A stretch of 64,000 nt of DNA, taken from NCBI RefSeq assembly GCF_000189635.1, contig NW_002476270.1:248001-312000 (forward strand). The letters are read 5' to 3'. The position numbers and the translations under genes were made by a program. The notes below the pieces were generated by a model. The model searched no databases. It was not told the origin of the DNA and was given only the letters and a program-made list of their open reading frames with translations. Each line of letters begins with the position of its first letter. Position 1 is the first letter of the stretch. The stretch comes from Tetrahymena thermophila SB210 (taxonomy: Eukaryota > Ciliophora > Oligohymenophorea > Hymenostomatida > Tetrahymenidae). This document shows, piece after piece, positions 14,195-48,400 of the stretch.

Positions 14195-15425
14195 TCAAAG
14201 TTTAAGAGATGAAACTGTTGAAAAGCAATGTTCTCTGAGAAAACCTCTTTGATTAACTGGAGCCTTAGGTTGATGACCAGCATATCCAGGAATTTTAGTA
14301 TGACTATATTTCAAAATAATTTAAAAACTAAAAAAATAAAATTTTATAATTTTACTAATTATCCACTATGGTTGCTCTAGATTTATCAATTCTTGAATTT
14401 AAAGCTGCAGCATGTTCAAGTGATTTACCAACAGTTCTTGCTGCAGGAATAAAACCAGTATAGTTAGGAATATGGAAAGTAGATTTAGTAGTACCCATTC
14501 TAATTTTAAATTTTAATTAAAAATAATTTTTTTTGTTAAAATTTACTTTAAAGGATCTTCGTGTTTATTAATTATTTCATTGCCATATTCATTCAATTTA
14601 TCAGTTGGCTTTGTGCCAAATTCTCCAAAGGTAGTTTTATATTCAGTAGGCCCTATTTTACTAAAATAAATAATTACATTTTGTAATTTAACTCTATTTT
14701 AAAAAGTTTCATTTTATTATAAAAATAAACTTTTATGAAGATTTGACTTTTTAATTATAAAATTAAAAGTAAAACTATACCTATCAACTTAGTGGGGCTT
14801 AAGATGATAGGACCATTCTGGTCTTGAAGCTTTACTATAGGAGTAAGGATCTTTAATATTAGCATTATAATTTGATTTCCAATGCTCTACACCTGTTTTC
14901 AATTTAGAAGTTTCATTATTAGGATCAAAGGTTTAATCCTTTCTATCACTGCCATATGAAAGAACACTCTTTCCAGTAGCTTAAAGTTGATATTAAGTCT
15001 AAAGTCCCTTCTTAACATGTGTATGGTTTTAATAATCTTTAGGCTATACTGCATTTGATACATCTACTTTATATACTGTTTTGTAATGTTGATGATTTTC
15101 GTACATAGAAGCGTCATCACGAGTTCTTTGTGCTAATTTTTAAAAATATTTAATGAATCAGTTTTGCTTATTGAAAATATTAATATTTTTTGACTATAAT
15201 AATTATAACAGCCATTTATTTATTTCGTCACTATGTATAAAATCAAGATTATTTCAGCAATATTGTAATTTTTTTTATCTATCATTTTATTTTATTTTTA
15301 AATAAAAAAGTACTTTATTCCCAAACATCGTTAGGAGAGAGAACTTATCTTCCTGGCTTTAGAGAGGGATATGGTTTATCACCATATGAAGAAAATCCTT
15401 AATATCCTGAAACTTTTGAAATCAT
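14195..15425 (-). CDS. Microtubule-inner-protein-like protein with IPGYxG motifs
   Basis: Minus-strand gene; start Met 15425 (MISKVSGYQGFSSYGDKPYP), stop TGA at 14195-14197, several introns. Exon 1 joins exon 2 through GTACTT...TTAG with a phase that preserves the frame (VWEQ then TQRTRDDASMYE). The protein carries related short motifs: VSGYQGF at the N-terminus, HIPNYTGFIPAAR near 14430-14490, and KIPGYAGHQPKAP near 14250-14300. Between them are Tyr/His/Lys-rich stretches (ENHQHYKTVYKVDV, SRPEWSYHLKPHQVDR). Short I-P-x-Y-x-G-x-x-P motifs of this kind are known in the FAM166/CIMIP2-type ciliary proteins that line the inside of doublet microtubules. The product has no membrane segment or signal peptide. 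It lies head-to-head with the axonemal dynein heavy chain gene, which fits a ciliary role. A specific orthologue is not claimed. Confidence 0.65.
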
Positions 15426-25500: not shown

Positions 25501-28500
25501 AAGGCATTTTAAATCTCGTTTGTAGAAATCTGAAATATTTGGTTCTCAACAAATTGTTTTTAGTGATATACTTCGTCTGGATTTAGAAAGGAAGGAATAT
25601 GAAGATGTAACAGATAAAATGTAAAAAGTAATTAGGGTGCTTGATGATAAGTAGGATGAATATAATTCATCAACCACTAATAATAAAATGAATTTAGTTT
25701 TCTTTGATGCTTGCATTTACCATATCTTAAGAATCCTTAGAGTATTACGTTCTCCAAGAGGTAATGCAATGTTAATAGGTGTTGGAGGTAGTGGTAAATA
25801 ATCACTAACTAAGCTTGCTACATTCATGCTTGAGTATAAACTTTCACTTCTAGAAATTACTAAGGGATTTGATTCTGAAAAATTCAGAGACTTTATAAAA
25901 GAATTGATGAAAGACTCCGGAGGTGCTCAAGGCAAAGGAACCACATTTATATTTACTGATAATCAAATTGTTTATGAATCTTTCTTAGAAGATATTAACA
26001 ATATTTTGAACTCTGGTGAAGTTCCTAACTTATGGTAGCAAGAAGATAAAGATGCTTTGATTTCTGATGTTAGAGAAATCAATAAAAAGTTAAGAAGAGC
26101 AGAAGATCCTGATACAATTTACAAAGTATTTATTATTTATTTTTTCATGTTTTATTAATTTTTAAAAATAACAAACTTAGACTTTTGTTGAAAGAGTGAG
26201 AAACAACCTCCACATAGTTTTATGTATGAGTCCTGTAGGAGATGCATTAAGAGTAAGGCATAGAAAATTCCCATCACTTGTAGATTGTTGTGCCCTAGAT
26301 TGGTTTTCTCCTTGGCCTAGTGAAGCTCTGATTAGTGTTGCTACATCAATATTATCTAATGATTAAAATTTCCCAACTCCTAACACAATTACTAAAGAAG
26401 AATTAATAGAATAAGTAGCATTTATGTGCAAAGAAGTCCACATTTAAGCAAGTAAGTAAGCAGAAGTTTTTGAATAATAATTAAAGAGAAAAGTATATTA
26501 CACACCTAAATCTTATCTTGATCTTATCAAGCTTTACCAAAAGGCTCTCTCAGACAAAAGAGCTGAATTTATCACTAATCAGAGTCGTCTATCTTCCGGT
26601 CTTACAAAGTTAGAATAAGCAAATAAATCAGTAGCTTAACTCTAAATTGATCTCACAGAATTGAAGCCTTAGTTGGAAGAAAAAACTATTTAGGTTAATG
26701 AAAAACTCAGGGAAGTAGAAAAGGATTCAAATATTGCTGCAGAAAAAGAAGCTGTGGTCTAAGAAGAAGCAGAAAAAGTTCAAAAGCAAGCTGATCGTAT
26801 TTAGTTAATCTCAGATGAAGCTCAAGCTGAGTTAAACAAAGTTATGCCTGAACTTGAAGCAGCAATGTAAGCTGTATAAAACCTTGATAAATCTGCATTA
26901 AGCACCCTCAGAGGTATGGCTAATCCTCCACAATAAGCCACCATTACCTTCGAAGCAGTTGCTGCATTGATGGGGTAAAAAAAATATCATTTTTTTAATT
27001 AATTTAAACATTTTATTAAATAAAAAATAAGTGAAAAGAAAACTGATTGGGCTTCAGTTAAGTAAATATTCTTGATGGATGTTCCTAAATTCATAGATAA
27101 AATGATTGGTTTTGACAAAGATAACATCTCAGAAGATAGGCTTAAAAAGTTAAATAAGGTATTGGCTAAGCCAGAATTTAATTTAGAAGATATCAAGAAA
27201 AATTTGAGCTATGCTCATGGTCTTGCATCTTTCTGTTTAGCTATGAAAGTTTATGCTGATGTAAATTCTAAAGTAAAACCTAAAAAAATAGAAGTAGCTA
27301 GATTAAACAATGAACTGAATGCAGTTAAATCAGAGTTATATGAAAAAGAATCAGAACTCAAAAAAGTCAAAGATAATGTATAAAGACTCTAAATGGAAAC
27401 CTAAATGATGGTTAAATAAAGAGAAGAGCTTGAAACTAATAAAGAATTAACTGAGTAGAGATTAGATAGAGCCTAAAAACTTATATAGTTAACAGCTGAC
27501 GAATAAAAAAGATGGGAAAAAACAGTTGTAAGATTAGGAGGAGAAATAGAAAATTTGTTTGGAGATGTTTTCCTTTCAACAGCTTAAATTTCATATAATG
27601 GTCCTTTCACAGGTAAGATATTTTTAAAATTAATTTTTTCATATTTTATATTAAAAAATGTTTAAATATGAAGGTGTATACAGAAAAGAGCTGAATACAA
27701 ATTGGTTAACAATGATTCGTGAAAAGAATATCCCAACCTCTGAATAATACAATTTAATTAAAACTCTTGGTGATCCTATGTTACTAAGAGAGTGGGTTAT
27801 TTAAGGTCTTCCTAGTGATTAGGTATCATAGGAGAATTCTATTTTCGCTGTTAAGGGTTTCAGATGGCCTCTACTTATTGATCCTTAACTTTAGGTAATT
27901 TTTATTGTATGAATTTTAATTAAAATAATATTTTATATTTACTGTTAAGGCAAATAAATGGATTAAAAATATGGAAAAACAAAATAAACTATCAATCTTT
28001 AAATTTTCCACTCCTAAATTCTTAGATATCGTTAAGCTTCAAGTTGAAAACGGTTACCCTATTTTAATTGAAGATGTCGATTCAGCTATAGATCCTTCAA
28101 TTGATTCAGTAGTTAACAAAGAATTTTCAGAAGTTGATGGTAGATTATAATTAAAATTAGGAGGAAAAGATATTAATTACCACAAAGACTTTGCTTTGTA
28201 CATGACTACTAAAAAACCTAACCCATAATACTTACCAGAAATATTTATCAAAGTTAATGTGATTAATTTCACCGCTACATTTGAAGGTCTAGAAGATTAA
28301 CTTCTTGCTGATGTAGTTAAAAATGAAAAGCCAGAAGTAGAACATTAAAGAGATGAAAATGTCCTTAAGCTTGCAACATTCCAAAAGCAAATTATTTAAT
28401 CTGAAAAAGAGATTCTTCGTCTGCTTGCAGAAGCTAAAGCTGAAAAGATATTAGATGATGTGAATTTAATTAAAACATTGTAGAATGCAAAAGAAATGGC

Positions 28501-31465
28501 AGAAGAAATCAATCAATAAATTGCAAAATCAATGGAAATTGAAAAGAGCATTGATGCTACTAGAAGCTCATATAAAAGTGTTTCAATTAGAGGTTCTATT
28601 CTCTTCTTCGTAATCAAAGATCTCTCTTTGATTGACCCTATGTATTAATACTCACTTCAATATATCAGTAAGCTCTTCAATTAGGCTATGTAATCCTCGG
28701 AATAATCAGATGATTTTGAATAAAGATTAAAAATACTTATTGAAAACATTACAAAAACAATATATACAAATGTAACTAGAGGTCTTTTCGAAAAAGATAA
28801 GCTAATTTTCTCTTTCTTGATTGCCACATCTATAAATAAGCATGCTAATATACTAAATGAAGATATCTGGAGAATTCTCTTAAGAGGTGCAGGCTTGTTT
28901 GATAAGTCAAAGTAACCACCTAATCCAGATAAGGTTATGATTCAACCCCTTTCTTGGGATTTAGCATATTCTCTTGAATTAGACTTCCCTGATTAGTTCA
29001 AGGGTTTCACTAAGCACATTTCTTAAAAGCTATCCCTTTGGAAGGAATATCAAACAAGTGAAGATCCCCTCTCTAAAAAATTACCTGAAGAATGGCATAC
29101 AAAAGTAAATATTTGAAAATTACAAATTTAAGTATCTAATTATTTTTAATTAATAAAAGCTTGATGAGTTTGAAAAAATTGTTGTATTGAAGATCTTTAG
29201 ACCTGAAAAAATTATGTTTGCAATCAGTAATTATGTTTAATATTATCTGGGTAAATTCTATGTTGAATAACCTAGTGTTACTATGGAAAGAATTCATGCT
29301 GATTCAGATATTTCAACTCCAATTATCTTTGTCCTCTCTTAAGGAGCAGATCCAACAACTTCAATTTTGAGCTTTGCTCAGTAGAGAGAAATGAATGAAA
29401 AGCTTAAGATTATTTCTTTGGGTTAAGGTTAAGGTAAAAAAGCCAGTATTCTAATAGAAGAAGCTAAGAGAGAAGGCAATTGGATATGTCTTTTGAACTG
29501 TCATCTTGCACGTACTTGGATGCCTGACCTTGAACTTATTATTGAAAGAATACCTGAATCTGAAAATGTAAGTAGCGACTTCCGTATCTTTTTAACTTCT
29601 ATGCCAGCAAGTTACTTCCCTGTATCAGTTTTGCAAAATGGTATCAAGATCACAACAGAGCCTCCTAGAGGTAAATTAAAATTGGAAATACTTTTTTGTA
29701 TTTGATAACATTTTTTTTTTAATTTTAAAAGGATTTAAAGCTAATTTAAAAAGAAGTTGGGATAATCTTACAGATGAGTTCCTTAATGATTGTACAAAAG
29801 CTGATGTTTTCCATAAATTAACTTGGGGTTTAACATTTTTCCATGCAATTATTTAAGAAAGACGTAAGTTTGGTCCTCTTGGTTGGAATATTCGTTATGA
29901 ATTCAATGATTCTGACTTAGAAACTTCGACAACTGTCATGAGAAAACTTCTAGATGAATAAGAATCAATTCCATGGGACGCACTTCTCTTCGTAACAGGA
30001 GAAATCAATTATGGTGGTCGTGTAACAGATGATTGGGATAGACGTTGCTTGGCAACAATTTTAAAGAAATTCTATGTCAAAGAAGCATTAGAAGGCACTT
30101 ATTAGTAATTTACTTAGATATATTTATATTTAAAATACATTTTTTAATCTTTAATATTTTTAAAGATTCTCTGATTCTCCAGTCTACAAAATTCCAAGGA
30201 TAGGAAATATTGAACAGTACAGAGCATATATTGAAAGCTTGCCTTTAAATGAAGATCCTTCTGTTTTTGGTATGAATGAAAATGCCAATATAGCTTATCA
30301 AGGATAAGAATCTACAAAAATGATTGAAACTATTCTATCTATTTAACCAAGAATGACATCTGCTTCTGCAGGTAAAACTCCAGATTAAATCGTCCTTGAC
30401 TTGAAGAAAAGTCTGGAAGAATAAACTCCTTAACTTCTTAATAAGGACGATGGAAATAAAGAATTGTTTGAGAAGGATGAAAATGACTTAATTCCTTCTC
30501 TTTCTACAGTTTTATTATAAGAAATGACTAAATTTAATTTATTAATTTCCACTGTGAATAGAACTTTAGCAGATTTAGGAAAGGCTATAGATGGTGACAT
30601 AGTTATGTCATCAGATCTAGATTAAACTTATAATTCTTTATTAAATAACCAAGTACCTAAGTAGTGGGAAAAAGTCTCATATCCCTCCTTAAAGCCTTTA
30701 GCATCATGGATTATTGATTTACGTGAAAGAGTTTAGTTTATGGCTAAGTGGCTAAAAGAAAGTACTCCATTCTGCTATTGGATCTCAGGTTTCTTCTTCC
30801 CCTAAGGTAATTAATTGTTTATGATTTTTTCATATAATTTAAATTTTAATCCTAAAATTTAACAAATTATAGGTTTCTTAACTGGTGTCTTATAGACTTA
30901 TGCAAGAAGCCATAAAATTCCTATTGATGAATTATAATTTAGCTTTAGAATATTAGATTTTGATAAAGAACAAGTCACAACAAAACCAACAGTAATTTAG
31001 TAAAGATCTAAAATTTGAATTAACTAATTAATTAATAATATTTAGGATGGTGTAAATATTTATGGTTTGTACTTAGAAGGAGCTTAGTGGGATAGAAGAA
31101 GAAAGACCATATTAGATGCTGCTCCAGTAAATTAAATTATAAATTATAATATGTACTAATTTTTAAATATAACTATAGAATCAAACAAGCTGCTTCATGC
31201 CTGTAATATTATTTAATCCAACAAAACAGTATTAAGAAAAAGCAGAAAATTATGCGTAAGTAGATTTTTTTTAAACTTTAAATTTTAATTATTCCTTTAT
31301 ATAAATAGCTGCCCTGTTTATAAAACCTCAGTTAGAGCTGGTGTTCTTTCAACAACTGGTTAGTCAACAAATTATGTACTTACTGTAGACGTTCCTTCTA
31401 TTGATTAAAATCCAGATTTCTGGGTTCTAAGAGGAGCTGCTTTACTTTGCTAATTAAATCAATGA
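16512..31465 (+). CDS. Axonemal dynein heavy chain, complete
   Basis: One gene of more than 20 exons, start Met 16512 ([17 protein letters not shown]), stop TGA 31463; product about 4,500 aa. Order: a Gly/Gln/Ser-rich tail, exon 1 giving 459 aa; linker region with [16 protein letters not shown] near 18225; an acidic insert ([14 protein letters not shown], near 19190-19230); AAA1 with P-loop [10 protein letters not shown] near 22440 and Walker [17 protein letters not shown]2 GATTSGKT, split by an intron at 23359; AAA3 TGMSGTGKS near 24612 with [11 protein letters not shown]4 GVGGSGKQSLTK near 25780; the coiled-coil stalk and microtubule-binding tip (26450-27590); AAA5; AAA6; and the C-terminal cap ending [12 protein letters not shown]. 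Dyneins use ATP at AAA1 to walk along microtubules and bend cilia. AAA1, AAA3 and AAA4 have good P-loops, as in ciliary dyneins. The linker motif suggests a single-headed inner-arm type (DNAH6-like); the subclass is inferred, the family is certain. Confidence 0.95.
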
Positions 31466-31929
31466 TTTAAGATAATCTAAAAAAAATAAAATCATTTAAA
31501 TAAATAAATAAATTTTAATTTTATAAAAAATAACTATTTTAATTTTTGTTTAGTTTTATTCGACTCAAGTGTATATTTACTTTTTGCTTTTTATATTTTC
31601 AAATGAAGCAATTAGAGATAAATAATATCAAATATCTAATCACTACTAATTTTATAAATTTATAAATACATAAAAATTTTCTATTTTAAAATTATAAAAA
31701 TAAACCTTCTATTAATTTGCATATATTTAATTAACAAAAGATAATCAATCAATCAATTGATTATTATAAATAAATTATTGGAAACTAAATTTTTACCTCT
31801 TCTTTTTAAATTATTTGATAATTGATAAAGATAGCAATAAGCTAAATCTTTAAAAAGTAGCAACAAGTAAACTTTTGATAAGAAATTTTGTAAAATAATA
31901 AATATAAAAAAAAGTTTTTTTATAAAAAA
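31466..31929. other. Intergenic spacer, dynein to HP1-like gene
   Basis: 464 bases of AT-rich DNA between two tandem plus-strand genes. No gene or RNA recognised; includes TCAATCAATCAATTGATT, a short imperfect palindrome at about 31745-31762. Confidence 0.5.
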
Positions 31930-34900
31930 ATGAGTAGCAACAAAAAAATTTAGGTATAAAAGAACAAATAAAAAAAAGTTCTGAAAAAGCTTTCTAACAC
32001 AAAAGAATCTATAACTGTAAGCGAAGACGAAAGCGAGAATGAAAATTATAATTAACAAAGTGAGCCTTTATATGAGGTAGAGGCAATTAGAGGCCATAAA
32101 GGAAATGGTAAGAATAGATTGTATTAAATCAAATGGTTAGGATATCCAGAGAACTAAAATACTTGGGAGCCTCTTGAAAACCTTTAAAATATTTTGAAAA
32201 TGGTAAAATAATATGAGGACTCATTGAAAAATAACTCATTCTCTTCATAATCGTCTTCATCTTAGCAAAAAAAGAAATCTTAAATTCAAGAGCCAAATAC
32301 CTAAATTTAACTAAATAAGAAAAGGAAAGTTTTAGGCAAAATACAAGGTAATAAATAGATTTTAGAATCTGATGAAGAATCCTTAGAAGAAGAGGAAGAA
32401 TAAATTTAATAAATTTCTAGAAAGAATAAAAAGGTAAAATCTGAAAACAATGATTCATCGATAGATGAGATCATTACTTCGCAATCTAAATCAAATGAAT
32501 CCAATAGTTAGAAGAGTAGAAAAAATAATAAAGTAAGTACTAGCCTCATTCGCGATTTTTTAGAACCTAATTAGAGTTTTGATACTCAAAAGAATAGATA
32601 GGAAAAGTAAGCTGTATCTTTTAGCACCCAAGATATCAAAATATAAAGTAATTAAAAAGTTGTAGATAACTAAAAAAGCAATAATAATACTGTTAGCAAT
32701 ATTAGTAACTCTAGTAATGATGTCAGAACAAATAATAGTAAAGTTTTGCCAAGTAAAAATGTTATTCCAGAAAATTAATTTAAAAGTATGTCTAATTTGC
32801 TCTATCCAAATTTTGTTCCTTAAACTCTCTAATAGAGCTCTTTAAGTCTTTTAAGTAAGCTAACAAATGTAGAAAATAACTATGATAAAGAAAAAAATGT
32901 TTAGAGTAGCTCAATTCGCTCTTCGCTTCTGATACCTACTATTCCATAAAATTAAAACTTAAAAAATATAGTTTAGAACTTTAGTTAATAAGATAATTCC
33001 GTAAGATAGGTTAATACAGGTTAAAGACTTTAAAAGTTGATTGAAACTCCTGAATTCGAAACTCAAAACTAATAGCCTGATGCTATCAACCCTAAACTAA
33101 AAAAGTTGAATAATGAAAATTAAAGTTTATTTTTACAGTTAAAAGACGAATTAGAATTATATAAGAAAGATATGCATCGAGAAGATTTAACTGACTCAGA
33201 ATATGATAGTGATGATGATAATAGTGAAGATGATTTAGAAAGTAATATCAAGCAAAAAAGCAAATTAAAAGAAGGTTTAAGAATATTTGAAATACACAAA
33301 GAATTAGAACTTTATAAAGGTTTAGATATTAAAATTGTATAAAATCTTAAAAAGCAAGAAGAATTAAAACTCTATGAAAACATTTACAATGAAGCAAATC
33401 TCATAGAAAATCAATAATAATATTTCTTAGGCTTTAGTGATATCATATAAAATGTAAAATCAATAGACAAAAATTTATTCAGACATAAATTATAATTTGC
33501 TCCATATATTAGCCAAAACACTTTATCTCAATCAAAAAATGATGTTTAAATTTAATAAAATGAAGTTTTAAATCCTATTGACACAGCAAAGGAGTATAAG
33601 TAGTAAAAAGAAAGCATATAAGAATAATTAAATCCTGAAAATTTGTTAAATATTAAATAAATTCCTTAAAAAACTCATTCAAATCCATAAGAATAGCATA
33701 AAAATTTAATTTAAGGATAAGGATCTATTTAGATTTAAGAATAAGTAATATCATTAAGTCAGCAGGCATCAAGTTTAATTAATCAAGAAGAGTCTACTTA
33801 AATTTAAGAAAAAGGAGTTACTGGTTTTAAAGAGAAAGAATCGATTTAAAATTAAGGAGAATAATTAGCCATTCCATGTTTAATTTAATAAGAAAAATAA
33901 TAATCTTTAATCTAAAACGAATTTCCTTTATAAATTTAAGGATAAGTATCTCTTTAAATTTTAGAAAATTTATAAATTTCAATTAATAAATCAATTGAAA
34001 ATTAAGAAAATTAAATAAGCTAAATCTAACAAAAAGAATCCATATAAATTTAAGAAAGAGAATCGCCTTAAATTTAATAAACAGAAAAATCCTCTTTTAT
34101 TTAAGAAAGAAAATCACCATTAATTTAAGAAACCGATTTAGCTGAAATTTAAGTAACATAATCACCTTAAAATTAAGAGATAGACTCACCTTAAAAATCT
34201 AAACATAACTATTATTCAGATGATCTATCAAATTCATTATCTGAAAGAAGTTATAGGAGGAAACCAAGTGATGATATAATTTCCAGAAACTATTAAACAG
34301 ATGAATCAGAGCAGTAAATACTTGTAGAAGATGATTTAGATGAAGATTAAAAAAAGATTTTATTCTAAAATGATACTCTTAATAAGAAAGATACTCCCAA
34401 TTCAAGTAAGAATGATTCCGAAAGTGATAAAGCATAAAATAAAGTAATAGATTCAGAAAAAGAATTAATTTAAGAAGAAACACCCATTTAAATATGCTTT
34501 GAAGGAATAAGTAATGAAAAATAATAAGAAATGAGTTACGAAATAAAAAGAAATAAAAATGTATTTGAAAGTGATTCATTGAGTAGCTCAATTTCAATAG
34601 AGAGTGCATAAAAAATAATAAATTTTAATGTATAGCCAGAAAAAAAATAAGACTTAGAAATGAATTTAGTCTAAACAAAAAATCTGAGTCAAATTGAGCT
34701 CAAATAAAAAACACACTCAAAAGACTCTACAAGGACAGATAGCCACTTAAGTGATAGTTTAAGTGCTACCCCTTGTAAAGATAAATCTAATGATAAACTC
34801 TCAAATATAACTCCAGATTCTTAAAAAATCATGGTCAGCACTAATTTTTTATAATTTAAATTAAGATTTAATTAATTAATTGTACTTTTATTATTTAAAA

Positions 34901-37709
34901 TATAGAATGATAATAAAAATAAGAAATAAGAAAATTCATCAATCAGCTCAATTACTTCAAATTAAGATACAGGTTATATTAATTAATAAATTATATCATA
35001 ATATTAATAGATTTATTTTTCTTTTTAAAGCAAATAATAAAAAAGACAGATTCAAGAAAAATAAAGAGGAAGGTAAGAATTTATATTTTGATTTTATAAT
35101 TTAAATTTATTAATTATATAGAAAAGCATTAGAAATAATAAAAAAGAATTAAAAGAAGTAGAAAAAGAAGTAGTAGCAGCAGCAGTAGCAGCAGTAGTAG
35201 AAGTAGAAGTAGCAGCAGTAGTAGTAGTAACAATAGCAGCAGTGGTGGTAGCAGAAGTAGAAGTCACAGCTCCTCTTCTAGAAAATACAAAAAGTAAACT
35301 TATTTATAATAGTTAGTTTAGAATAACAATTTAAAATATAAAATTAATAGAAATTAAAACAAAAATAAATATCAAAGAAATCAGTAAAATCCTAAATTTT
35401 AATCACTTTCTTCTTCAAAAAGCTAAAGCTATTCATCTTCATCTAACTATTCCCGCTCACCATCATCCTCTTCTTCATCTTCAGAAAGAAAGAATAAAAA
35501 TAGGAAATTTAGCAAATCATCTTACAGCTAAAGTAGAAGTAGTTCAATAGACTAAAGGAAATCAAACATTAGCTCAAGATCATCTCTTTCAAAAGATGAT
35601 GATTTTTTTAAAAAATAAGCAATAAGTTCTTAATCCTCTATAGATCATACTGATCAAAGGTTACTTAACAAAGTAAATTTTAAGATGTAAACTAGCTAAT
35701 TAGATTCAGAGGACTAATCAGTAATAAAAATAAATTAAATTGATCTTCATAATTATCATTTATACTTAAAAATAGATAAAAAAAGACACTAAAAAAGTAG
35801 AAAATGAGTAGAATAAAGGTATAAATTATCATCTTTTTAAATATATTGCTTAGTATTTTATTTATTCATAGGCTTTGATTAATAAACAAAAGTTTCATAA
35901 CCACAATCTGAGCAGCAAAAGCAACAGGTTTTAATTCCTCAAAATTAAAATATTTAAATTAAAGGTACTTACTCATTAAAAAAAAAATATTTTACTTTAT
36001 TTATCATTTTTTTTACAAAAAATATTTACAATAAAATTAATTTATTATTATTTAAATTTATTTATGATTTATTTTTAAATTCATTAATTTTAATATTTAA
36101 AAAAAAAAGATTAATCTCAAATAATAAAATTTAGTTTTTTTCATTAAGTTCTCTTTATTACACCAAAAATTTTTTTTGAAATTAACAATATGAAACTTTT
36201 TTTATTTTTACGCATTTATTTGAAATTAAATATCTACTTTATATGAATTACAGAACAAAATAAAGAGATACCTGTTTAACCTACTCAACCTAGCTTAACA
36301 TTTGCTAATGATTCTGCGCCTAAGCTTGTAAATCCTTAAATAACAGATATTTAACCTTAGCCTTAAATAAATAATCAAATTTCTTTTAAAACAAATAATT
36401 TTGAACCTAAAACTTTTTTAGCAAGCTAAATACCTTAATCAGTCGTCTTATGTTCTTTATTTTCGCCTATTGGAGATATTTAAACACCTTAGCAATCTGT
36501 TTCAAGTATGACACAATAATCAATAGCTAAAAGTGCAACACCTTTACCTCAAATAGCTAATAAAAATACTGTACCATAAACTATTTCTCTAGTTCCTGCT
36601 TTGTAGCCAAATATGCCATAAAATAAAGATATACCTTCTCAACCGAAAGCAGCGAATACAGTAGTTTAGAATAATAATGTAAATCCACCTTAAGCTAAGT
36701 CTTCTAATCCTGTAGCTCAGTCAATAAGCAACAATTCATAATCACAGACAAAAAAGTAAAATATTCAGTAAGACAAAAAAATAAAAACTGTGAAACCAGA
36801 AAATCCTTTTGGATGTAGGACTATCTATGAAAGTGATGAAGATTCAAGTAGTGACTGTACTGATAGCGAAATGGATGAAGAAATAAATCCAAAGAAGCAA
36901 TAAATTTAAGAAATGTAAATTTCTTATTATTTTTTCTTTTAAATAATTTTTTATTTTATCCAAAAAGGTAATAACAAAATTCAGTAAAAAATACTGTATA
37001 ATAAAAAATTGATAAAAGCTCTAGCGTGAGTGCATTATAAAAATAAGATTCAGTAAATGCTAATGCTATAAAATAAAACACTGAAAAAAATCCAATTGTT
37101 AATGTTTTATAAAAATAAGATTCTGTCTAATCTTAAAATCCTCCTTAAGTTTAAACTCAAATTTTACCTTAAATTAATCTAAAAAATTAAGTTAGTAGTT
37201 AGGATAACTAATTGCAAAATAATAAAAAAATTTTAGAAGATTAAGCTTTGAATTAAAAGTAAAATAGTATCAAAAATAATTAAGAAGAATAAAATTTGAA
37301 CTCAAAGTTAAATAATATTTCTCAAATTCCATAACCTCCAGTCTCAGTATAAGTAACCCAATAAACAGTTATTCAGAATATTGAGAATATAAAAGATCCA
37401 AGAATCAAGAAAAAATATGAATAACAAGAGAAGAAAAATTAAGTTTTTGATTAAAAGCTAAACAGCTTGAAAAACAATATGATTCTTTTTCCAAACATAG
37501 GATCTTTAAAATTTGATGATCCTGAAAGGATTATATCTCATATATATCACAATGGATAATTATTCTTTAAAGTCAGTTGGAAGCCTAGATCAGATAAGAT
37601 ATAGATGCCTCCTACATTCATTGAATACTTTAAATTTAAAGAAATGTATCCAGTCATTTGTGATAAATATATAATTCCAATTTTAAGCTCATAATTAATA
37701 AAATATTGA
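31930..37709 (+). CDS. Giant HP1-like protein: chromodomain plus chromoshadow domain
   Basis: Start Met 31930 (MSSNKKIQVQKNKQKK), stop TGA 37707; product about 1,700 aa. Residues 48-99 are a chromodomain: YEVEAIRGHKG, then LYQIKWLGYPENQNTWEPLE, keeping the aromatic cage positions (Tyr, Trp, and Trp of NTWEP). The last 70 residues form a chromoshadow domain: DDPERIISHIYHNGQLFFKV, then SWKPRSDKIQMPPTF and YPVICDKYIIPIL. HP1 proteins bind methylated H3K9 through the first domain and dimerise through the second. In between are long Ser/Asn/Gln-rich segments, a degenerate IQxQE repeat (33715-34200), an Arg-Ser tract (35140-35290) and a Pro/Gln/Ser-rich part (36250-36800). Introns were traced at roughly 34840-35110, 35797-35871 (unusual donor GTAGAA, needed to skip TGA 35805), 35966-36253 and 36919-36967. 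The downstream exons have no start Met of their own, which supports one gene, but those joins should be confirmed with RNA. Confidence 0.75.
33715..34200 (+). repeat. Degenerate coding repeat, IQxQE units, in HP1-like hinge
   Basis: A unit of about 10-12 residues recurs roughly a dozen times with drift, for example GSIQIQEQ, ESTQIQEK, ESIQNQGE, LQIQGQ, ESIQIQERE, SPQIQQTE, SPLIQETD, SPQNQEID. Many units begin with Ser and hold I-Q/N-Q/E. At DNA level this appears as recurring ATTTAAG/ATTTAA blocks. Confidence 0.6.
35139..35290 (+). repeat. AGC/AGT/AGA triplet tract encoding an Arg-Ser run
   Basis: Tandem AGC, AGT, AGA and AAC codons encode a Ser run broken by Arg, Asn and Gly inside the HP1-like gene. 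It reads as Arg-Ser in the chosen frame and as poly-Gln in another (CAG/TAG), so the splice phase upstream decides which is made. Only the Arg-Ser frame joins the upstream exon NNKKDRFKKNKEE and stays sensible downstream. Confidence 0.65.
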
Positions 37710-38742
37710 GTCGATCATATGTATTTTTAATTAATTTATAATGTTTTTAAATATTTTAATATTACTTAACATTTATTACTATTAGTTTATTTTATTTTTT
37801 TATTTACTAAAAGGTATTATACAACTTAATCTTTAAAAATTTTTTCATTTCTTTATTAAAGCTGATTTTTATTATTGAATAAGATAAGAAAAAAATATAA
37901 TTGCTTTTTAATTAATTAAAACTGAATATTTTTCTTTAGTATTTATTAATTATTTATTGAAAATATAATAAAAATTATATTTACTTAAGAACTATAAGGA
38001 CCAAAATTTCTTTAAAAAAAGACATTATATTAGGGGTCAGATTGAGTCATAAAATTTTGACTTTTATGAAAATATTTTATCTTGACATCACAAGGCTAAT
38101 TAATTTGGTTACTTAAAATTTAATTATTCAAAATTATTAATTGTTAAAATATTTTTTTAAAATTGACTTGTTATAGGAATAAAAAATTAAAATTAAAAAA
38201 TTATAAAAAATATTTGGTTTACTTATTTTATAATTCTAAATTTTTTAAAATAATCAAAAATTTTAATAAATAAATTATGAGAGAATTAATTAATTCAATT
38301 TAAAAATTTTATATTAAATATGATGATAATGAATTAATTAATTCCGTTTAAAAATTGATAATAGAAAGCAAAAATTAAAAATTAGTTTAAATACTTTTAA
38401 ATTATTAATATTTTACCTTAAAATTGATTGAGAAGGACTTTGAAAAGAAATTTCATTTTACCTATTAATAAAAGTGTTTTATTTATTTGATTTTTTTTTT
38501 TTAGATAAATTTCACTAATTGTTTTTAATTAAAAATTATTATCATATTTTTAAATATAAATTTGCTTCATATACTAATGAAATTTAAATAAATTAAAAGA
38601 GTTAAGTGGGGAAAATTAAGAATTATTGAAGAAAAAAGAAAAAAAATAAATTATTTACTAAATTAAAAATCAAACAAATATTTAATATATACCAATGAAT
38701 TTTTATACTCATATCAAATCTAATATTTTATAATTTACTTTA
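37710..38742. other. Convergent intergenic spacer
   Basis: About 1 kb of very AT-rich DNA between the 3' ends of the HP1-like and BRCA2-like genes. I see no gene. ATGAATTAATTAATTC and a similar block (AGAGAATTAATTAATTC) occur about 50 bases apart near 38280-38345. Confidence 0.5.
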
Positions 38743-41511
38743 TCAACATTGAATAAATGTATTGTAAGATGTTTTAAATATAAATTTCTTTTTGTTTACT
38801 TCATAACATTTCAAATGAACATTTAATAATCTTAGAGTTTAGTATTTTTCGAAGCTTAACAGTTTTGTTTTAAAAAATGAATTATGTGTAATTATTTCGC
38901 ATTCACATGGTTATCCATAGTAACTAATTTCTCCTATTATACTGTTATTATTTTAAGAATAGCTCCTATAGGAAATAGATAAGTCAAAATCTAAGGTTTC
39001 TAAATAGTTTAAATTACAGAATTTAGAATAGTCTTCAATGGTTTTGCTTTAAGCGAATGCTTTTACTGCAGATTAATAAAATTATTTGCTTCGTGAAAAA
39101 TCTTACTTAGTCAAGAAGCGCTCTTAATGCATAACATTTTTATATTCAGCTTTCAATGTTATTGTATATCCGCTAAGATAATGATTTTAAATGTCATAAA
39201 AAGTACAATATGCATTTCTAACTCTAATTCTAGTCCCTTCTCTCATTTCTGAGTATGAATTAGAATCAGCAAATTAGATTATCAGCTCAGTTTAAGGTTA
39301 ATTGGAAATAGGTTAAGATTAATCATAAATGAATAAAGAATCACACACTAAGTATTTAGCATAAAAAAAGTCGTTGGAATTAGCTTTATTAATAACTGAG
39401 CTATTAACTGCTTCACAAAAATTAATAGTTTTTTTTTGCTATTTTAAGTGATATTAAACAAGCAGAGGATATTTTTTAAGTATCACTAAATCTAATGTAG
39501 AAATCTGTTCTCCCTTTGGCTTAATTGATGAGAGCGATCTTAAAAAAGGCTTATTAAAATACCCTAATTTAGTTTATTTATTTTTCTCTTTTTAAAATGA
39601 GTTAAAAGGTATTTAAATTAAATGATCGAATTCCCTTATTTCTCCGCAATCTTATTATATTTTTATTTTTTACTAAAAGAGAAATTATAAATTAGATATC
39701 CTAACTTTTGTTTGTGGTTTTATTTTTTTTCTTTAGATTAAATCTTCAAAAAGCTATTAATTAGTCATTTTCAGAGTATTTTTCTTATATCCTATATTTT
39801 TTCCTTTTTATTCATCCTAGCTGCTTAGGCTTAAGCTTTTATGGTGATAAGGTTGCTCTTTAATATTAAGAGATTTATTGATTATAAAATATAGTGAAGA
39901 CCAAGCATCAGTAAACTCTATTACATAATGTCTACTTGTTTCTAGGATTTCTCCTATAAGTAAGATTATTTGGTTGGGGTAATTATAAAACTATTTGATT
40001 TCTATTGAATTTAATTTTAAATTATCTTGAATTTAGGCATATTCCTGTTGAATTTTATTATTTGCAATTTAATCAGTTTATTTCTACTTGTTTTGAATCT
40101 CCAAAAAAGATAAATATTTCTCAAGAAAAGGTTAAAAGTTTAATTTTTTCTACATGTATATTCTTTTCTCAAGATGATAGTACAGAGACTCTATAGAAAG
40201 CTTTTGTTTAAAAGATAATCTCCAAACAAGGAATCTGTAGTAGTTACTAATATCAGTTCGTTTTACAATTTTACTCAAGTGAATTTCTTCTAGTTTTTTG
40301 AAAAATTCTTCTTCTCCAACCATACCATTTTAGCAAAAGCAGCTTAACTTGGATCTTATAGATTAAATTTTTTAATAATAGTTTTATTCTTCATCGTTTT
40401 AGTCACTCTCATAAATTAGTTTTTTTTCTGTTGTCTAACAATCAGCGATTTAGTTAACTGATTTTTATATTTTATGATATTTGCTTTTACTTTTAATGGT
40501 CTATTCATTTTAAACACTCTAAATGGAATCTTAAGACAAATTGTTTGCTAATTCAAAACAAGGTTCACACAGAAATTTATAACTTAAGCATTTTTCTATT
40601 GGAATTGCTTTTTTTATTAATGAGCTTTGTTCAAAGTTGATAGAATCTTTAGATAAAAAAGGGTTTCTTGAAAATTAGTAAGCACTAAATTGCTCTAAAG
40701 TTAATTTATTAATGTCAAAATCTTGTAAGGCTAAATTCCTTTTTAACTAATCATTATTTTTTTTATTTTTAAAAGAAAGTTCAGTATTTCCAAATTCAGG
40801 AGAATGATTCTGAGCTGTGCTAAATTTGCTACTAAATTATAACACAGTAAAATCTGTCTTTTTTGCACTACTTTTTAAAGATTTTTCAAATTTCATTTGT
40901 CCATTTTCAATATTTTGGTTAAGCTAAGCTAGATATTAAGCTGATGAAAAAAATGGATCAATGCTTCTATCTATAGTTTTTATATAATCAGTATTTTGTT
41001 AATCGCTACTCTATTCTTTTACATAATTTTAATGAAGTCTATGATCTAAATTATAAGTATTTTGATTAAGATTAATATTCCTTACAGTCAAAAAGGGATT
41101 CTATTCATCTAAATTGCATGTATTTTTATCATTCGAAATTTTTTGATGAGGATATATTGAATTATTGCTATTCAAATTCCAAGTTCGATTTTTAAAAAGT
41201 TCTTTACTTCCTTAGAAAATGTCTACCTTATTTTATTTTCCACATTTTAAAATTTGACTAAACTCATCATCTTCAGCTGTCCTTTGTAATTATATTTTAC
41301 CTATATCCTTTAGGTCTATTTATTCATACTTCTAAGGAATATCTAAATTGTTTTTTGTAACAAGATTAAGTGTAGAGTTTGTTTACTAGATAATCCCACA
41401 AGAGCCTCCATTTTAATTTTAAGCATCCATTTTAGAGGACAAATTATTAGTTTGCTACCATATAGACTTGTTTGCTTTAGGTTTATCCATGTTTTTGTTG
41501 GAATTGAACAT
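38743..41511 (-). CDS. BRCA2-like recombination mediator, 922 aa, intronless
   Basis: Single exon from Met 41511 (a second Met in frame at 41490) to TGA 38743-38745. The C-terminal half follows the BRCA2 DNA-binding domain: a helical part with DISNYYRFLVWRLSFKQ (about residue 425; human VYNHYRWIIWKLA); OB1 start LLIGEILET, then HYVIEFTDAWSSLYFI (human AIIELTDGWYAVK, about residue 535); KPQTKVRISNLQF (human VGQKIILHGAEL); then TKLGYFNKPFLRSLSSI (human TKLGFFPDPRPFPLPLSSL, about residue 647) and LDLVILKKYPLLVQY (human VDVIIQRAYPIQW). OB2 follows (ELIIQF, MREGTRIRVRNAY). The N-terminal half is low-complexity with two possible BRC-type FxxA sites, FFSSA near residue 186 and FSTA near residue 228. 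BRCA2 loads Rad51 onto single-stranded DNA during recombination. The human comparison is from memory, but four matches in the right order make the family call strong. Divergent with the gene at 42439. Confidence 0.85.
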
Positions 41512-42438
41512 ATTATTTTTAGCTTACTTCGATTTTTAAAATATTTAATTTTATCTGATATATATAAGAATTAAAAAATAGATTTGACAATTAAATGTAA
41601 TTGAATTCTAAATTTTTTAGACTAAAAGTAAGTAGAATATATAAATAATAAACAAAATAAAAATAAATAATTATTCATAAAATTTAAAGTAGCTTTTTAT
41701 TTCTTTTTACAAATATTTTATTAGTAAAATGTTGCATACCTTAGATTAAAATTTGCTATGGGAGCTAGATTCATGAAATTTAATAAACCGCATCCACGAA
41801 TTTACTTACAATTAAAAATTTGTAAGCTAAATAATAATTGAACAAAAAAAATTAATATCTAACGTGTATTAATAATTTGAGTATTTGTGAGTGAAGGAGA
41901 GAAGTATTGATGAATTCAATAAAAAAGATATAATCAAAAAATAACAAAGAAGGTTTCTGATCTTGGTACTGATAAGAAGGATAATGATTTAGCTTGAATC
42001 AAAATTTTATTTGGATATAACAAAAATTAGATAACTAATTAATTAAAGGTGGGGAAATAGAAAAAATAGAAAATAAATAAGAGTAGTCTATAAAAAGTTG
42101 GATCCTACAACTTTTGCAAACAAACAAGATTATTGATCAGAAATAAATTAAAAAGGATATTACAATATTTGAATGTTAAATAGCTAAGAAAATTAACAAA
42201 AGATTAATAAATTTCATTAATTATGGAAGATATCATTTACTAATTGAATTAAGTAATTAAATAATTATAAAGTTTACAAGATCTTTAGATTAAATCTTAT
42301 TCATAAAAACGTACTTTAAATACCTTAAGATTAGGTTGATGATATAATTAATTGATTATAAAAATTATTAAAGCAATTAATATCTTTCTAGCAATAAAAA
42401 GACAAACAAACAAGCAAGCATAATAAAAAAGCAAACAG
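41512..42438. promoter_or_regulatory. Divergent spacer, BRCA2-like gene to 2,294-aa gene
   Basis: About 930 bases between two start codons facing away from each other, so both promoters should lie here. AT-rich throughout, with slightly more G near 41880-41960. No tRNA-like B-box, gene or known site seen. Confidence 0.45.
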
Positions 42439-45400
42439 ATGTCAATTAAAGAAGAACTCTACGAACAGTACTTGTTAAGTGAGTCAAAAGCTGATTTCAT
42501 AAGCAATCTTATTCCTGATTCATATGAACACCTATACTTCTAAGTCTTACATTCTTTGAATACTAAGTCTACTTTAACAGAAGAAGATGTCAAGATCTTG
42601 ACAAAACTTAGAACAAACTATGCTCAAGGTAAGCATGAAAACTATTCTCTTCATAATTTAGACTTCTTAAATCTCCTAAGAGTCCTTGACTCTTAAAAGA
42701 GTACCACAGCTTAGAGAGAATAAGCCCTCAAGGATCTCAAAAACTACTTTAATATCAAATTTAGTGCTATCAAGCCTAATTCAGTATAAGGAAATGAAAT
42801 CCACTAATCAGATATATTGTTAGGAACTTAACTTGAAACTTCTCTTGATCAAAAACTAATCAGCTTCCAAAATTATTTGAATTAAGCCTACACCAGTCAG
42901 CACATTCTAAGTAACATTGTCCCTTAAGCTCTCTACAAACTAGATGTGGAAAGACTGCTTACAGAAGCTAAAAATGAAAAGAATTATGCATAAATACTTG
43001 AAGCTTTTGTTTCTAATGTCCCTTGTCTCCATCAAGTTAAAGATGTCCCCAAAATATACAAGGCTATTTATGATGACTACTAAAAGAGAAAGCTCGTATT
43101 TGACTTTCAGTAAGCTGGCTATGACAGATTGAGTTTATCATAACTCAAAGAATTTGGTACTTTAATGAAAGACGTAGTTTTCGAAACATTTGAATATCAA
43201 CTTGCCTTAATGAAGAAACTTTTCTTTAGAGTACTTGATTATATTCATTAAAAATTTTATAATTTTTTAAATAAATTAATTAAATTCTACATTTACTTTG
43301 CTTATCTTCTATTCAGATAAATAGATATTCATTTTAAAAATTTTATTAGTGAAATTGATTAATTTATTTATTTAGATTATATCTTAGAGATGATATTTGA
43401 TTATCACAATATTAACTTTTATGATTAAATAAAATAGGATGTCAGTAAATTTTTAAATAAATAAAACCTCTCTTTAACATAAGAAGATAAATAAGAGAAG
43501 AAGAAGTAATACACACTTATCTTGACCTGGGTTAAAAGCAACTTACCTAGGAAACTCTAGTACTTGCAAAGACTTTTAGTTTAGGAGCTAGTTTTATTGA
43601 ATTTAGAATTAAAGGATTACAACTAAGAATTATTCTTAGAATTTATCACAAATCCTCCTATTATTATTAAGTAATGAATTTGAATCATAAATTTCTTATT
43701 AAATATTTTTAAATTACTTATAATAGCTAATTCACAAATACTTAAAGAGAAAGATACTAATAAAATATTGTGTAGCCAAATAGAGATTGGAGTTAAATCT
43801 TTTAATTCTCAAGTCTTAATTCTACCTAGTTATTAAGCACAGTAGAAAATTATCTCCTTTTCTTTTATAGAACTGCTGATAGTATTAAACCTTTCGACTC
43901 TATTTTAGAATAGTATTACTTAAATAAGACATTTTACAAATCTAAAATTTTAAGTGGTTAGTAAGAGTATATTACCAAATCAACTTCAGTTTACTCCTAG
44001 TCAGAAATAGAAAGCTTAGTTAACTCAAGATAGATTAATATCCTAGATAGCAACAATAGATATGTTAAGGGTAATGAATAAGTAAAATTGCAAGTTGAGG
44101 TAAAGAACATTTAAAACTTGACAGTGAACATCTTTGAAATAAAAACTGGAAATTATTATATGGAGAAGATGACTTAATTTGATAATACCATTAGCCTTGA
44201 TGGACTTATTCCTTTACATACTACAGAGTATACTTATAAAGAATCTTCTAACTAGTTGGTTTTGAGAGAATTTAACTTGGAGCCTATTTAAAAAGCTGAA
44301 AGAGGTATTTTCATCGTTGAATTCTTTGGTAACTCAATATCTTCTAGAGCTGTCTTTAAAAAAGGTATTTTGTTTTGCGAATTAAAATATTTTAATTTAA
44401 CTTTATTTATTTACTTACTTAGGACTTTTAAATATTGTGTCAATTCCTACAATTGCAGGACACTTGATCACTATTGTTGATGAGTCATAAAATATCTGCA
44501 AACCCACTTAAGAAAGTAAAACTGGTATTTTGAAGGATGGAAGATTCTTTAGCGCAGATGAAAATGGTTAGATCATAATTCCATATGAAAGCACTCAAAG
44601 AACATACTAATTAATATTAACTCATAATGACTTCTCAGAAATAGAATCCTTCGATGTATTAACTGAATATTACAATTTCGAATGTACTTATATGTATAAC
44701 TAGGAATCTTTCTTATAAGGTAATAAATCTAAAGTTATCATCCACCCTACTTTGAGTGTCAACGGCTTACCTGCTGATATGGACATAATAGAAGACTAAC
44801 TTATTAAAGTAAATATAAAAAATCATTAGGATATTCCAACAGCAATTGAGTTTAAAGATTTCAAATTTAGCAACAAAGAAGATATTTAAATAGAAATTCC
44901 TATTCAAAGCATTATCAAATCAATAGAAATAGAGTGCACAGGAGTTATAAATAAAATGGATGGAACTAAATAAAACTTAGTTAGCAATAATAAACTTACA
45001 TTCGAATTGCACCAAGTACCTCAAAACTAGATCTTTAATTTGTACTTAAAGAATACCCATTCTCATGGATATGTTGTTTATGCTCTTGACAAAACTGGAT
45101 AGCCTTTAGAAAAAGTACCTATTGAATTTTAATTGTTCCATAAAAAAATTTATCAAAACTTCACAAGCATGCTTCAAACAGATGCTGAAGGTAAAGCAAT
45201 TCTTGGTTAATTGGATAACATCAACAGCATTACTGCCCAAGTCAAAGACTTTAAAAACTTCCCTGACATCCATTAAAATTGGGTTATAATGCAAAATTAC
45301 AAGACAGAATTACCATCAAATATTACTATTACTGAAGAAGAAACTGTTGAAATTCCTATACCTAGTAATGTTTAATTGAGTCGTGAAAACATTACATTCT

Positions 45401-48400
45401 ACTCTGTGAATTAAGACATTTAGGAATTTGTATATGAAGATCTTTTTGAATAAGTTAAATAAGTAACTGGTTTCTTAAGAATATCTAACTTAAAACAAGG
45501 AGTCTACATCCTTCATATCTTGGAGCTATAATCCTACATCACTATTAATGTTTACAGAGGTAGTTATTGGACTCATAATAAGTCATTCTTAATAACTGAT
45601 AATAAATTCATCTAGGTAACTAGAATTAAATTAATTTACTATATTAACAATTTATTTCAATATAGGTTGATAGATCTAGAGAAAATTTAATCTCAATCAA
45701 AGAAACACTTCTAGTCCCTTAATCTGAAACTGAAGCAGATATTTTAGTTAACCTAAACTTACCTGAAAGTATTAGTGAAGCTTAAAGAAACAAGATTAGA
45801 GTTCATGTTTTCGCCTTTAATTACTTATCAAATGACTAAGATAACTTTGTATAAAGTTTAAGAAATAACAGAATTCACAAGCCTGAAGTTGTTATAAGCA
45901 TCCAATCATAAGCAGCAAGCTTCTTCAACAATAAAAAAATTGGTGATGAAATATGTTATGTCTACAATAGAAAAAATGAACTTAAAAGAATAGGAAACAC
46001 TCTTGAAAAACCTTAAGTTTTACTTAAGAGAACATTTAATAGAGATACATCTTTTGAAAAGGAAAACTTAGAGATAGGTTAAGATTTCTAGAATGTTTCT
46101 GAAGTTTAATAAGAATCAATCAAAAAATCAAAAAAAGATATGAGATATTATGATTGCTCTGGTAGTGAAAGGTATTGTGCTGATATTTAAGTTTGCCCTC
46201 CAGGAGCATGTCATGTTAAGGGAGAAATAGATTCCTTTTTAAATTTCTTGAAGAATGCATGCTTTGTGACTTCAAACCATTAAATCTAACAAGATGGATC
46301 AGTAATTATTCCAGGCTTTTAATGGAAGAATTACTCTAGCATTCAAGTAGTTGTAACAAGTAATAACTTAGCAATTTCTGACATTTTCCCCACTACATCA
46401 TCTGAAACTCCTACATAAGATCTTAGACACGTATCTTCTATGAAGCCAGATTAAGTAAAAATTTTTATTTCTTAATTGATAAAATTATTTCTATAGAATA
46501 TTAAACAAATCTTAATTATATAGTTTTACACTGAAAACTTTAGCTCAGGTAAATTGAATGCCAGTTAAACTTTGTCGATTTCTGCTGATAGCCAAACTGC
46601 AGTTGTTGGAAGTATTCCTGAAATTTTTGAAATCTAAAAATAATTAATGAAAACAGGAAGAAAAACTGATGAATATAACGGAAAGAGTTATAGCACTTGG
46701 TAGTTTTTGAAAGAATGGATAACTTTTACAGATAGATAGAAATTAGATAAGTATAATGAATTCGCATCTCATGAATTAAACCTTTTCCTTTACTTCAAAG
46801 ATAATAATTTCTTTAAAGTAGTGGTAGAGCCTTTCTTAAAAAATAAAATTTAAAAGTCTTTTATTGACTATTTCCTTCTTGGTAATAAAGAAGAATAGCT
46901 TAAATACTCTAATACTGAAAGGGTCAGCGAGTTAAATACCCTTGAATAAGTACTTCTTATCATCACCTTAGTGAAAAATAACTTAAAGTAAAGAGCTGAA
47001 TGTTTAGCTTCATCGATTGAAAATACATAAAAGACATAAACTAAAAACATTGATTTGTAAAAGAGATTATTCCTCACTATCATAGAATCTACAGCAAAAG
47101 ATGAAATAGTTGTTGCTCAGCAAGTATTAATGGAGTGTACAAGCTTTAAATCTATGGCGCAAAAGTCTCGTTGTTATGCAGCAGCACCTATGTAAAAAAT
47201 GTCTCTCAGATCATCAAAAATGGCAGAATAATCAGATTTGTTGGATCTTTAATGTGAAGCAGAAGAAGCTGATGACTACTTTGGCGGAGGAGGCTCAATG
47301 AAGGAGTAACTTATTGAAAAGAGGAAAGAGTTTAAGGAAGGTTATAAAAAGTTAGAAAATACTAAAGAATATATTGAAAGACAATATTATTCAGACAATA
47401 GAGTAAATAATTATCAAAATTTAGTTTAAGTAAACAAATTCTGGAGTGATTTAGCAAGATTTATCGTAAATAATAACGGGATTGAAAATTTTGTAAGTGA
47501 GAATTTTATTTATGGTTTTAATAACCATGTAGAGGCTATCAGTGTCCTATCTCTTATGGATATTGCTCATACATCTAGAGACAATTATGACCTTAATTCT
47601 CTTCCAGGAAGGAAAATTCAAATAGTTTCATAAAAGAATGTCATTTACTTCTCAAAAGAAATTGTTTAATCATCCGATATAACAAAAGTAAATTGAATTT
47701 CTTTATTTATCATTTAAAATAAAATTTCTTAAAAAATTAATTAAAAAAATTAAAAAATAGTTTTCAATTTAATTTTATAATAAAATTATTTTTTAATCTA
47801 AATCTAGGCTAATGTTAGCATAATTTAAACTTTCTTTGATCCTAATGACAGATTCACAACTCTTAAGGATGATCCTACAGTCAAAATTGAAAAAGAAGTA
47901 GAAGAATTTGTGATTAACAAGATTTATGGATGCAAGGTTATCGTCTCTAACATCTCTATAGCTAACTTGAATCTTTCAATACTTACTGAAATTCCTGAAG
48001 GAGCTATTCCAGTAAATAGCTTCGAATATACTAAAAGTATAGACATAACTGTTAACTCTTATCAGACTTACAATAACATTGAATTCTTCTTCTATTTCCC
48101 TAAGGCTGGTACTTTTAATATTTACAGAAGTAACGCCTCCAGAAATGGAATTATTATTGCTCAAGCCAATGAAATTGCTCCAATAATTGTCAAGCAATTC
48201 AATGAAATCAAAAAAATGGAAAATCTTTCTGATATCCTTAATAATGGCTCCAAAGAAGACATACTTTAGTTTGCCAAAACCCAAAACTTGCATGACACAT
48301 AAGCTTTTAACATAAACAAGATACTCTACATAATATAAAGCGACAAGGTAATTAGATATTTTATTTAACCAAAATTTAGATTTTTAAAATGTAATAAAAA

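Follow-up and report, generated by a model that had tools for sequence, protein, structure and literature searches.

We find that positions 31930-37709 of the analyzed window, a 64,000-nucleotide stretch of the Tetrahymena thermophila SB210 genome, form one continuous gene of 7 or 8 exons with predicted splice sites (Table 1), and that this gene, probably CDL1, encodes an HP1-like protein of giant size, about 1,716 residues, that begins with a chromodomain and ends with a chromoshadow domain (CSD). We consider it fairly probable that the protein is a methyl-H3 reader and a scaffold for heterochromatin or DNA-elimination bodies. The first-pass annotation had described a single HP1-like gene of about 1,700 residues with the two domains at opposite ends and with repeat, Arg-Ser and Pro/Gln segments between them. 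That description holds: the splice model gives 1,740 or 1,716 residues and the coding scores agree with it, profile searches detect both domains, and the 24-nt repeat, the RS block and the P/Q block are all present. The gene itself appears to be already listed and its CSD to be new; what is unusual is the size, a CSD that was unrecognized by the 2017 survey, and the last helix of that CSD, the class itself being known.

In the standard code, the largest ORF touching 30000-39500 has at most 101 residues, so the ciliate code (table 6) is required; with it, one frame is open over 31888-35091, its first ATG being 31930 and its TGA lying at 35089. Downstream of 35091 there are three more long open stretches with the frame changing between them, and removal of six GT..AG introns (49-289 nt, 85-92% AT) leaves a single ORF of 1,740 aa up to TGA 37707-37709. 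If the additional in-frame intron candidate within exon 1 is also removed, the gene has 8 exons instead of 7 and the product 1,716 aa. The whole protein has a calculated mass of 196.8 kDa and a pI of 9.03. TGA 35805 is circumvented by two short introns: it sits within exon 4 and is out of frame after the 55-nt intron is excised; with that intron retained, the protein would stop at 1,232 or 1,256 aa without the CSD, and such an isoform is a possible candidate for a switch.

Table 1. Features of the CDL1 candidate gene and other long open frames of the window
Feature	Position	Strand	Evidence
Exon 1 (ATG 31930; may be split by 34834-34905)	31930-34972	+	open frame; 31930-34833 = 0.45 bits/codon
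Chromodomain	32068-32232	+	PF00385 E 1e-14, residues 48-97
Degenerate 8-residue repeats (about SPxIQExx)	34021-34192	+	TRF period 24; overlapping arrays 34021-34086 and 34047-34192
Probable in-frame intron, 72 nt, unusual 5' end GTCAGC	34834-34905	+	GC 0.12; negative vs intergenic in all frames
Intron, 58 nt	34973-35030	+	GT..AG, 91% AT; non-coding score
Exon 2	35031-35072	+	frame restored by flanking introns; coding score leaves frame undecided
Intron, 49 nt, takes out TGA 35089	35073-35121	+	GTAAGA..ATAG, 92% AT
Exon 3, Ser/Arg-rich (RS) segment	35122-35720	+	composition; serine codons
Intron, 55 nt	35721-35775	+	GTAATA..ATAG, 87% AT
Exon 4	35776-35818	+	splice model; coding score leaves frame undecided
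Intron, 53 nt	35819-35871	+	splice model
Exon 5, Gln-rich	35872-35964	+	coding score 0.36 in frame, other two frames negative
Intron, 289 nt	35965-36253	+	88% AT; non-coding score
Exon 6, Pro/Gln-rich, Ser/acidic patch at its end	36254-36914	+	in-frame scores 0.49 and 0.74; composition
Intron, 53 nt	36915-36967	+	splice model
Exon 7, Q/N-rich stretch then CSD; stop TGA 37707-37709	36968-37709	+	in-frame score 0.34
CSD, Tetrahymena type, KVxWKPR motif, divergent last helix	37500-37706	+	leave-one-out HMM i-E 7.3e-9
Long open frame without Pfam match	2-1780	-
Long open frame without Pfam match	3580-5781	+
Long open frame without Pfam match	12170-13276	-
Long open frame without Pfam match	14198-15157	-
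Long open frame without Pfam match	44266-46140	+
Long open frame without Pfam match	45600-47693	+
Long open frame without Pfam match	53971-56403	+
Long open frame without Pfam match	60521-61357	-

The codon usage behind the coding score came from three dynein stretches of the window and from portions of two other ORFs, the Cdl2-like and the Hpl3-like one; intergenic sequence and off-frame sequence served as two references. With the intergenic reference, each of the nine exon pieces of the model scores above zero in its own frame, and the seven introns fall below zero in every frame; with the off-frame reference, slightly positive values (0.02 to 0.13) appear for 5 of the 21 intron values. Part of one intron of this gene had been included in the intergenic background, and when seven stretches were rescored with a background lacking that part, both introns among them were still negative. 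In the short exons 2 and 4, an alternative frame equals or exceeds the modelled one when intergenic sequence is the reference (0.42 vs 0.31 and 0.35 vs 0.33), and none does so with the off-frame reference. For exon 3, frame 1 exceeds the RS frame in two of four blocks (35124-35270 and, slightly, 35421-35570), the RS frame being higher in the other two. Serine in the RS frame is maintained by two unrelated codon sets, with 36 AGY and 33 TCN codons among 199; the corresponding counts are 4 and 0 in one of the remaining frames and 3 and 7 in the last. These codons settle exon 3 in favor of the RS frame over frame 1.

The aromatic cage of the chromodomain is complete (Tyr, Trp, Tyr), and its clamp residues are a Leu just before the cage and a Gln 14 residues after it. 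Its closest PDB chains (41 sequences at E <= 0.001) are those of Arabidopsis LHP1 (8xag, E 2.5e-13; 7vyw, E 1.4e-12), followed by the fly chains RE36324p (4.7e-9), Rhino (6.1e-9) and HP1 (3.4e-8). At the two clamp positions LHP1 has Phe/Gln and Hhp1 Val/Leu, compared with Leu/Gln here. Binding of H3K9me2/3 is a trait of the HP1 family. The Leu/Gln pair differs from the polar pair of HP1 described in the sections of PMC5762428 drawn on in this work, and, with Gln as its second residue, it also departs from Polycomb (Pc/CBX) chromodomains, in which both positions are non-polar. Since the cage is complete and the clamp is LHP1-like rather than the polar pair of HP1, this basic, LHP1-like chromodomain would be expected to bind H3K27me3, and perhaps also H3K9me3.

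As judged by profile comparison, the C-terminal domain is a homologue of Tetrahymena and animal CSDs. Its Pfam score, 14.5 bits within the exon and 17.2 as a trimmed domain, is below the cut-off of 22.4, and so are the Tetrahymena CSDs accepted in the literature (Hhp1 13.2 bits, Hpl1 15.4 bits, Hpl2 no match). Genome-wide searches covered 101 Mb in 445 contigs; that with PF01393 did not return the window CSD, and its one match, which lies in the Hpl3-like gene, was below threshold (E 0.37). A profile built from six other Tetrahymena CSDs finds the window CSD at E 6.9e-8, compared with 0.09 for the best of 2,000 shuffles and 0.23 for the runner-up among 1,112 frames of the window. In a leave-one-out analysis of eight CSDs, picked by eye from translations and searched against 3,182 frames of 13 loci plus the window, seven of the eight were recovered: Hpl2 (2e-11), Hpl3 (2.4e-11), Cdl3 (3.4e-10), Hpl1 (5.3e-9), Cdl1 (7.3e-9) and, more weakly, the C134 gene (8.6e-4) and Hpl6 (1.3e-3). 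Hhp1 was missed, the top match in its locus (0.058) being its chromodomain. The full eight-CSD profile added one CSD, that of HPL7 (1.6e-8), with the following match only at 0.12. The window CSD and the Hpl3-like CSD are reciprocal best matches genome-wide, self excluded (E 0.003 and 0.004).

Searched against the PDB, a profile built from the first seven of these CSDs returned 11 sequences at E <= 10, six of them of the HP1 family, with the Drosophila HP1 CSD (3p7j, 0.0012) and Rhino (0.036) on top and the remaining five sequences unrelated (E >= 0.66). A further profile, from the five proteins reported to lack a CSD (Cdl1, Hpl3, Cdl3, Hpl6 and Hpl7, three of these names being inferred), returned 29 sequences at E <= 10, of which the best 17 are all CBX, HP1 or Rhino (top 0.0019). 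Two single-sequence AlphaFold models of the C-terminal region, one with 92 residues and one with 72, were of low confidence (pLDDT 46 and 50); they place strands before two helices, a CSD-like order that we do not count as support. A Foldseek search with the 92-residue model gave nothing at E < 0.001, and the 50 of 361 matches listed contain no CSD.

Between the two domains lies a hinge of about 1,550 residues (100 to 1648 in the 1,716-aa model), which is S/N/Q-rich and contains an acidic stretch, the octapeptide repeats, a Ser/Arg block, a Pro/Gln block and a Q/N-rich block; its low complexity was judged from composition. The RS block (residues 996-1205 of the same model) is 33% Ser, with a net charge of +32 and 18 RS/SR dipeptides. 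A short hinge is typical of HP1 without defining it, and the window protein does not fit that pattern. A Q+N content of 0.25 is shared by stretches of the Cdl2-like and the Hpl3-like gene, compared with 0.12-0.13 for dynein, so it is a trait of the class in this genome rather than of the gene. In Pfam at E 0.1, the four long exons of the seven match only Chromo and, weakly, Chromo_shadow; the same search gave no helicase domain of a CHD remodeller, no Polycomb C-terminal Pc box, the protein ending in a CSD instead, and no SR-protein RRM, though an RS block is present. The first-pass annotation had set this giant against the usual HP1 of about 200 residues with a short hinge, and had suggested that such a hinge could drive phase separation or bind RNA; either may be a role of the hinge. 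The protein is less of an exception than that contrast implies, since this genome holds other long chromodomain proteins, among them an Hpl3-like protein with up to about 843 residues between its domains and a Cdl2-like gene with a single open frame of more than 1,300 codons. Of additional note, a 48-nt unit occurs in two copies at 37224-37318, in the Q/N-rich stretch 5' of the CSD.

The window gene is probably T. thermophila CDL1, a name that we assign by charge values rather than by locus tag. Charge ratio and pI of chromodomains were compared with the values in the consulted sections of Wiley and colleagues (2017; PMC5762428), and the outcome depends on the domain boundaries chosen. Over 54 residues, the window chromodomain has a ratio of 0.88 and a pI of 8.22, and published Cdl1, a large protein of the same species with a single chromodomain, has 0.88 and 8.2. 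The values also lie within tolerance of Hpl4 CD1 (0.88, 8.3), Hpl4 being described there as a two-chromodomain protein and its primers finding no match here; at other boundaries they fit Hpl7 CD1, but the HPL7 gene lies elsewhere. In a control among seven chromodomains, each of the three known from primers (Hhp1, Hpl6 and Hpl1) was matched to its correct name; for Hpl6 and Hpl1 other candidates came up too. Primers from the same source, tails removed, matched the loci compared exactly in 10 of 15 cases, which identifies the genome as that of T. thermophila; the four primers for HPL4/HPL5, genes that probably lie outside the loci compared, were unmatched, and the reverse primer for the HHP1 truncation has 2 mismatches, from a strain difference or from primer design. 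The Leu/Gln clamp agrees with the place of Cdl1 in neither of the clamp lists in those sections.

According to the same sections, Cdl1, Cdl2, Cdl3 and Hpl3 are large and have no recognizable CSD, whereas the window protein carries one at its C-terminus. Table 4 of that paper gives Cdl1 a peak at conjugation hour 9 and, from unpublished data cited there, foci in developing macronuclei with a weak macronuclear signal. Taken together, the probable CDL1 identity, the hour 9 peak and the foci make a DNA-elimination context plausible. The connection with DNA elimination raised by the first-pass annotation stands to that extent. Among the papers listed by the literature search, there was no later characterization of Cdl1 or its CSD.

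In the view published in PMC5762428, as far as the consulted sections go, most Tetrahymena HP1-like proteins have no recognizable CSD and CSD function is degrading. We found a CSD in 9 of 11 chromodomain genes, a count that omits L015 and L017 (CHD-like by eye) and HPL4 and HPL5; none was found in the C235 and C251 genes. HPL6, HPL7, the Hpl3-like gene and the Cdl3-like gene thereby show four further CSDs where those sections report none, HPL7 being given there as chromodomain-only. Since the reverse primer published for HPL6 sits at the extreme end of the CSD frame, the published ORF includes the CSD. Other loci compared by charge ratio and pI with the same source were C122 (1.00 and 6.39; Hpl3, 1.00 and 6.4), C251 (2.4 and 4.23 at six boundaries, 3.0 and 4.08 at the default 54 residues; Cdl2, 2.40 and 4.2), C235 (1.1 and 5.77, other boundaries leading to Hpl1; Pdd3 and Pdd1 CD1, 1.10 and 5.8) and C65 (0.70 and 9.02 at 52-54 residues; Cdl3 CD1, 0.70 and 9). 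The C134 gene, which by eye has two chromodomains and a CSD, is probably Pdd1. A CSD that is retained but diverged would change which proteins can join the heterochromatin bodies guiding programmed DNA elimination, and a protein of this kind would offer a natural test of the limit on HP1 hinge length and of the need for CSD dimerization in body assembly.

Animal HP1 proteins (CBX1/3/5, Drosophila HP1) have the identical order, chromodomain then CSD, and a short hinge. Arabidopsis LHP1, which has the nearest chromodomain of known structure, shares the second-clamp Gln and a non-polar first-clamp residue; it is much shorter than the window protein, and the kinship between the two is limited to the two domains. 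As stated in the part of PMC5749160 consulted, RNA is bound by the hinge of LHP1, and nuclear foci depend on this hinge. LHP1 is the closest analogy for the hinge and reader-scaffold mechanism suggested here, and Paramecium Fire1/2 offer another. Within Tetrahymena, Hpl3, Cdl3, Hpl1, Hpl2/Tcd1 and Pdd1 likewise have a chromodomain upstream of a KVxWKPR-type CSD (the C134 gene with a variant of the motif), but at a far shorter inter-domain distance than that of the window protein; Hpl2, Pdd1 and Cdl3 have a second chromodomain, as the sections of PMC5762428 describe them.

Based on these observations, we propose the following mechanism. In the developing macronucleus, the chromodomain would read H3K27me3, perhaps along with H3K9me3, on germline-limited DNA; the hinge, with its Q/N-rich, octapeptide, +32 RS and P/Q segments, could engage in many weak contacts at once, RNA being a possible partner; and the CSD may link the protein to other HP1-like proteins. 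In this way, the protein would help heterochromatin bodies or DNA-elimination bodies to form or stay together. Against this proposal we count the report of no CSD in the consulted sections of PMC5762428, the assignment of the name CDL1 by charge values, the low-confidence AlphaFold models with no CSD among the Foldseek matches listed, the sub-cut-off Pfam score of the CSD and its absence from the genome-wide PF01393 result, and the poor alignment and non-coding score of its last helix.

This last point leads to a possible, if rather doubtful, alternative, in which there is one gene but its C-terminal CSD has decayed or its true last exon lies further downstream. Either this helix is truly unusual or the model of the 3' end is wrong. 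Four residues past the conserved Pro (Ser in Hpl6), the protein has Asp, where all eight other Tetrahymena CSDs have Ile, Val or Met; by ungapped hand alignment, in a region where both alignment and gene end are uncertain, this Asp falls at the position of HP1alpha Ile165, and the mutation I165E abolishes HP1alpha dimers according to the part of PMC4523856 consulted. The leave-one-out CSD match stops before the last helix, and the final 20 codons fall at the 1st percentile of coding blocks, a value like that of non-coding sequence, so the gene end may differ from the model. When 37652 is joined to 38047, the C-terminus becomes DFYENILS, nearer the usual FYE helix. However, among 43 alternative 3' splices the best scores 42.4 bits (36.4 for the unspliced sequence), a level that 6 of 30 shuffled versions of the downstream sequence equal or exceed; a hidden last exon restoring the usual helix was rejected as no better than shuffled sequence. 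Considerably less likely still is a division of the region into a chromodomain gene whose product stops at TGA 35805-35807 (1,232 or 1,256 aa) and a second gene for a P/Q-rich CSD protein from ATG 36508. This TGA is in frame 0 and would be used if the 55-nt intron were retained, and use of the stop at 35805 was what the first-pass annotation had named as evidence against its single gene; the coding scores do not support such use. Both 36254-36507 and the exon at 35872-35964 look coding in the modelled frame, and since the former lies 5' of 36508, the first ATG in its frame, a separate second gene starting there is unlikely. Moreover, the introns restore the frame exactly, and a chromodomain and a CSD in one gene are the pattern of other family members.

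The function of a single gene product can also be read differently. It could be mainly a transcription-linked H3K27me reader resembling Paramecium Fire1/2, its RS block touching RNA-processing factors, and not a structural HP1. The common features are a basic N-terminal chromodomain and a very long disordered tail in a ciliate protein, as the sections of PMC11723920 consulted describe Fire1/2, and the clamp of the window chromodomain is half non-polar. But in Fire1/2 both clamp residues are non-polar and those sections describe no CSD, while Cdl1, in the consulted sections of PMC5762428, is published in foci; we regard this explanation as unlikely. Returning to the reader and scaffold that we prefer, a more specific version of it, which we put forward only tentatively and do not expect to be right in full, is that Cdl1 is a full-length giant HP1 whose CSD, having lost its homodimer surface through the Asp at the Ile165 position, would not pair with itself, so that the protein docks on or caps bodies built by other HP1-like proteins while the hinge serves as the scaffold, the CSD, published as degraded in most Tetrahymena HP1-like proteins, being kept in at least nine of them.

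As for the neighborhood of the gene, none of eight other long open frames of the window matches Pfam at E 0.001 (Table 1), and searches of the window with Rfam at gathering thresholds and for tRNAs gave nothing. For a convergent ORF of 1,140 aa (38743-42165, minus strand), Pfam gave nothing at E 1. A dynein heavy chain gene (26133-27572 and 29942-31015) precedes the CDL1 candidate on the same strand and probably reaches further upstream; it matches PDB dyneins to E 4.8e-80 and Dynein_C of Pfam at E 1.6e-61. Elsewhere in the genome, contig C235 ends near 99535 in a CCCCAA-type repeat that reads as PQ, PN and PT repeats in three frames and that resembles a Tetrahymena telomere; a Pdd3-like chromodomain lies within about 1 kb of this repeat.
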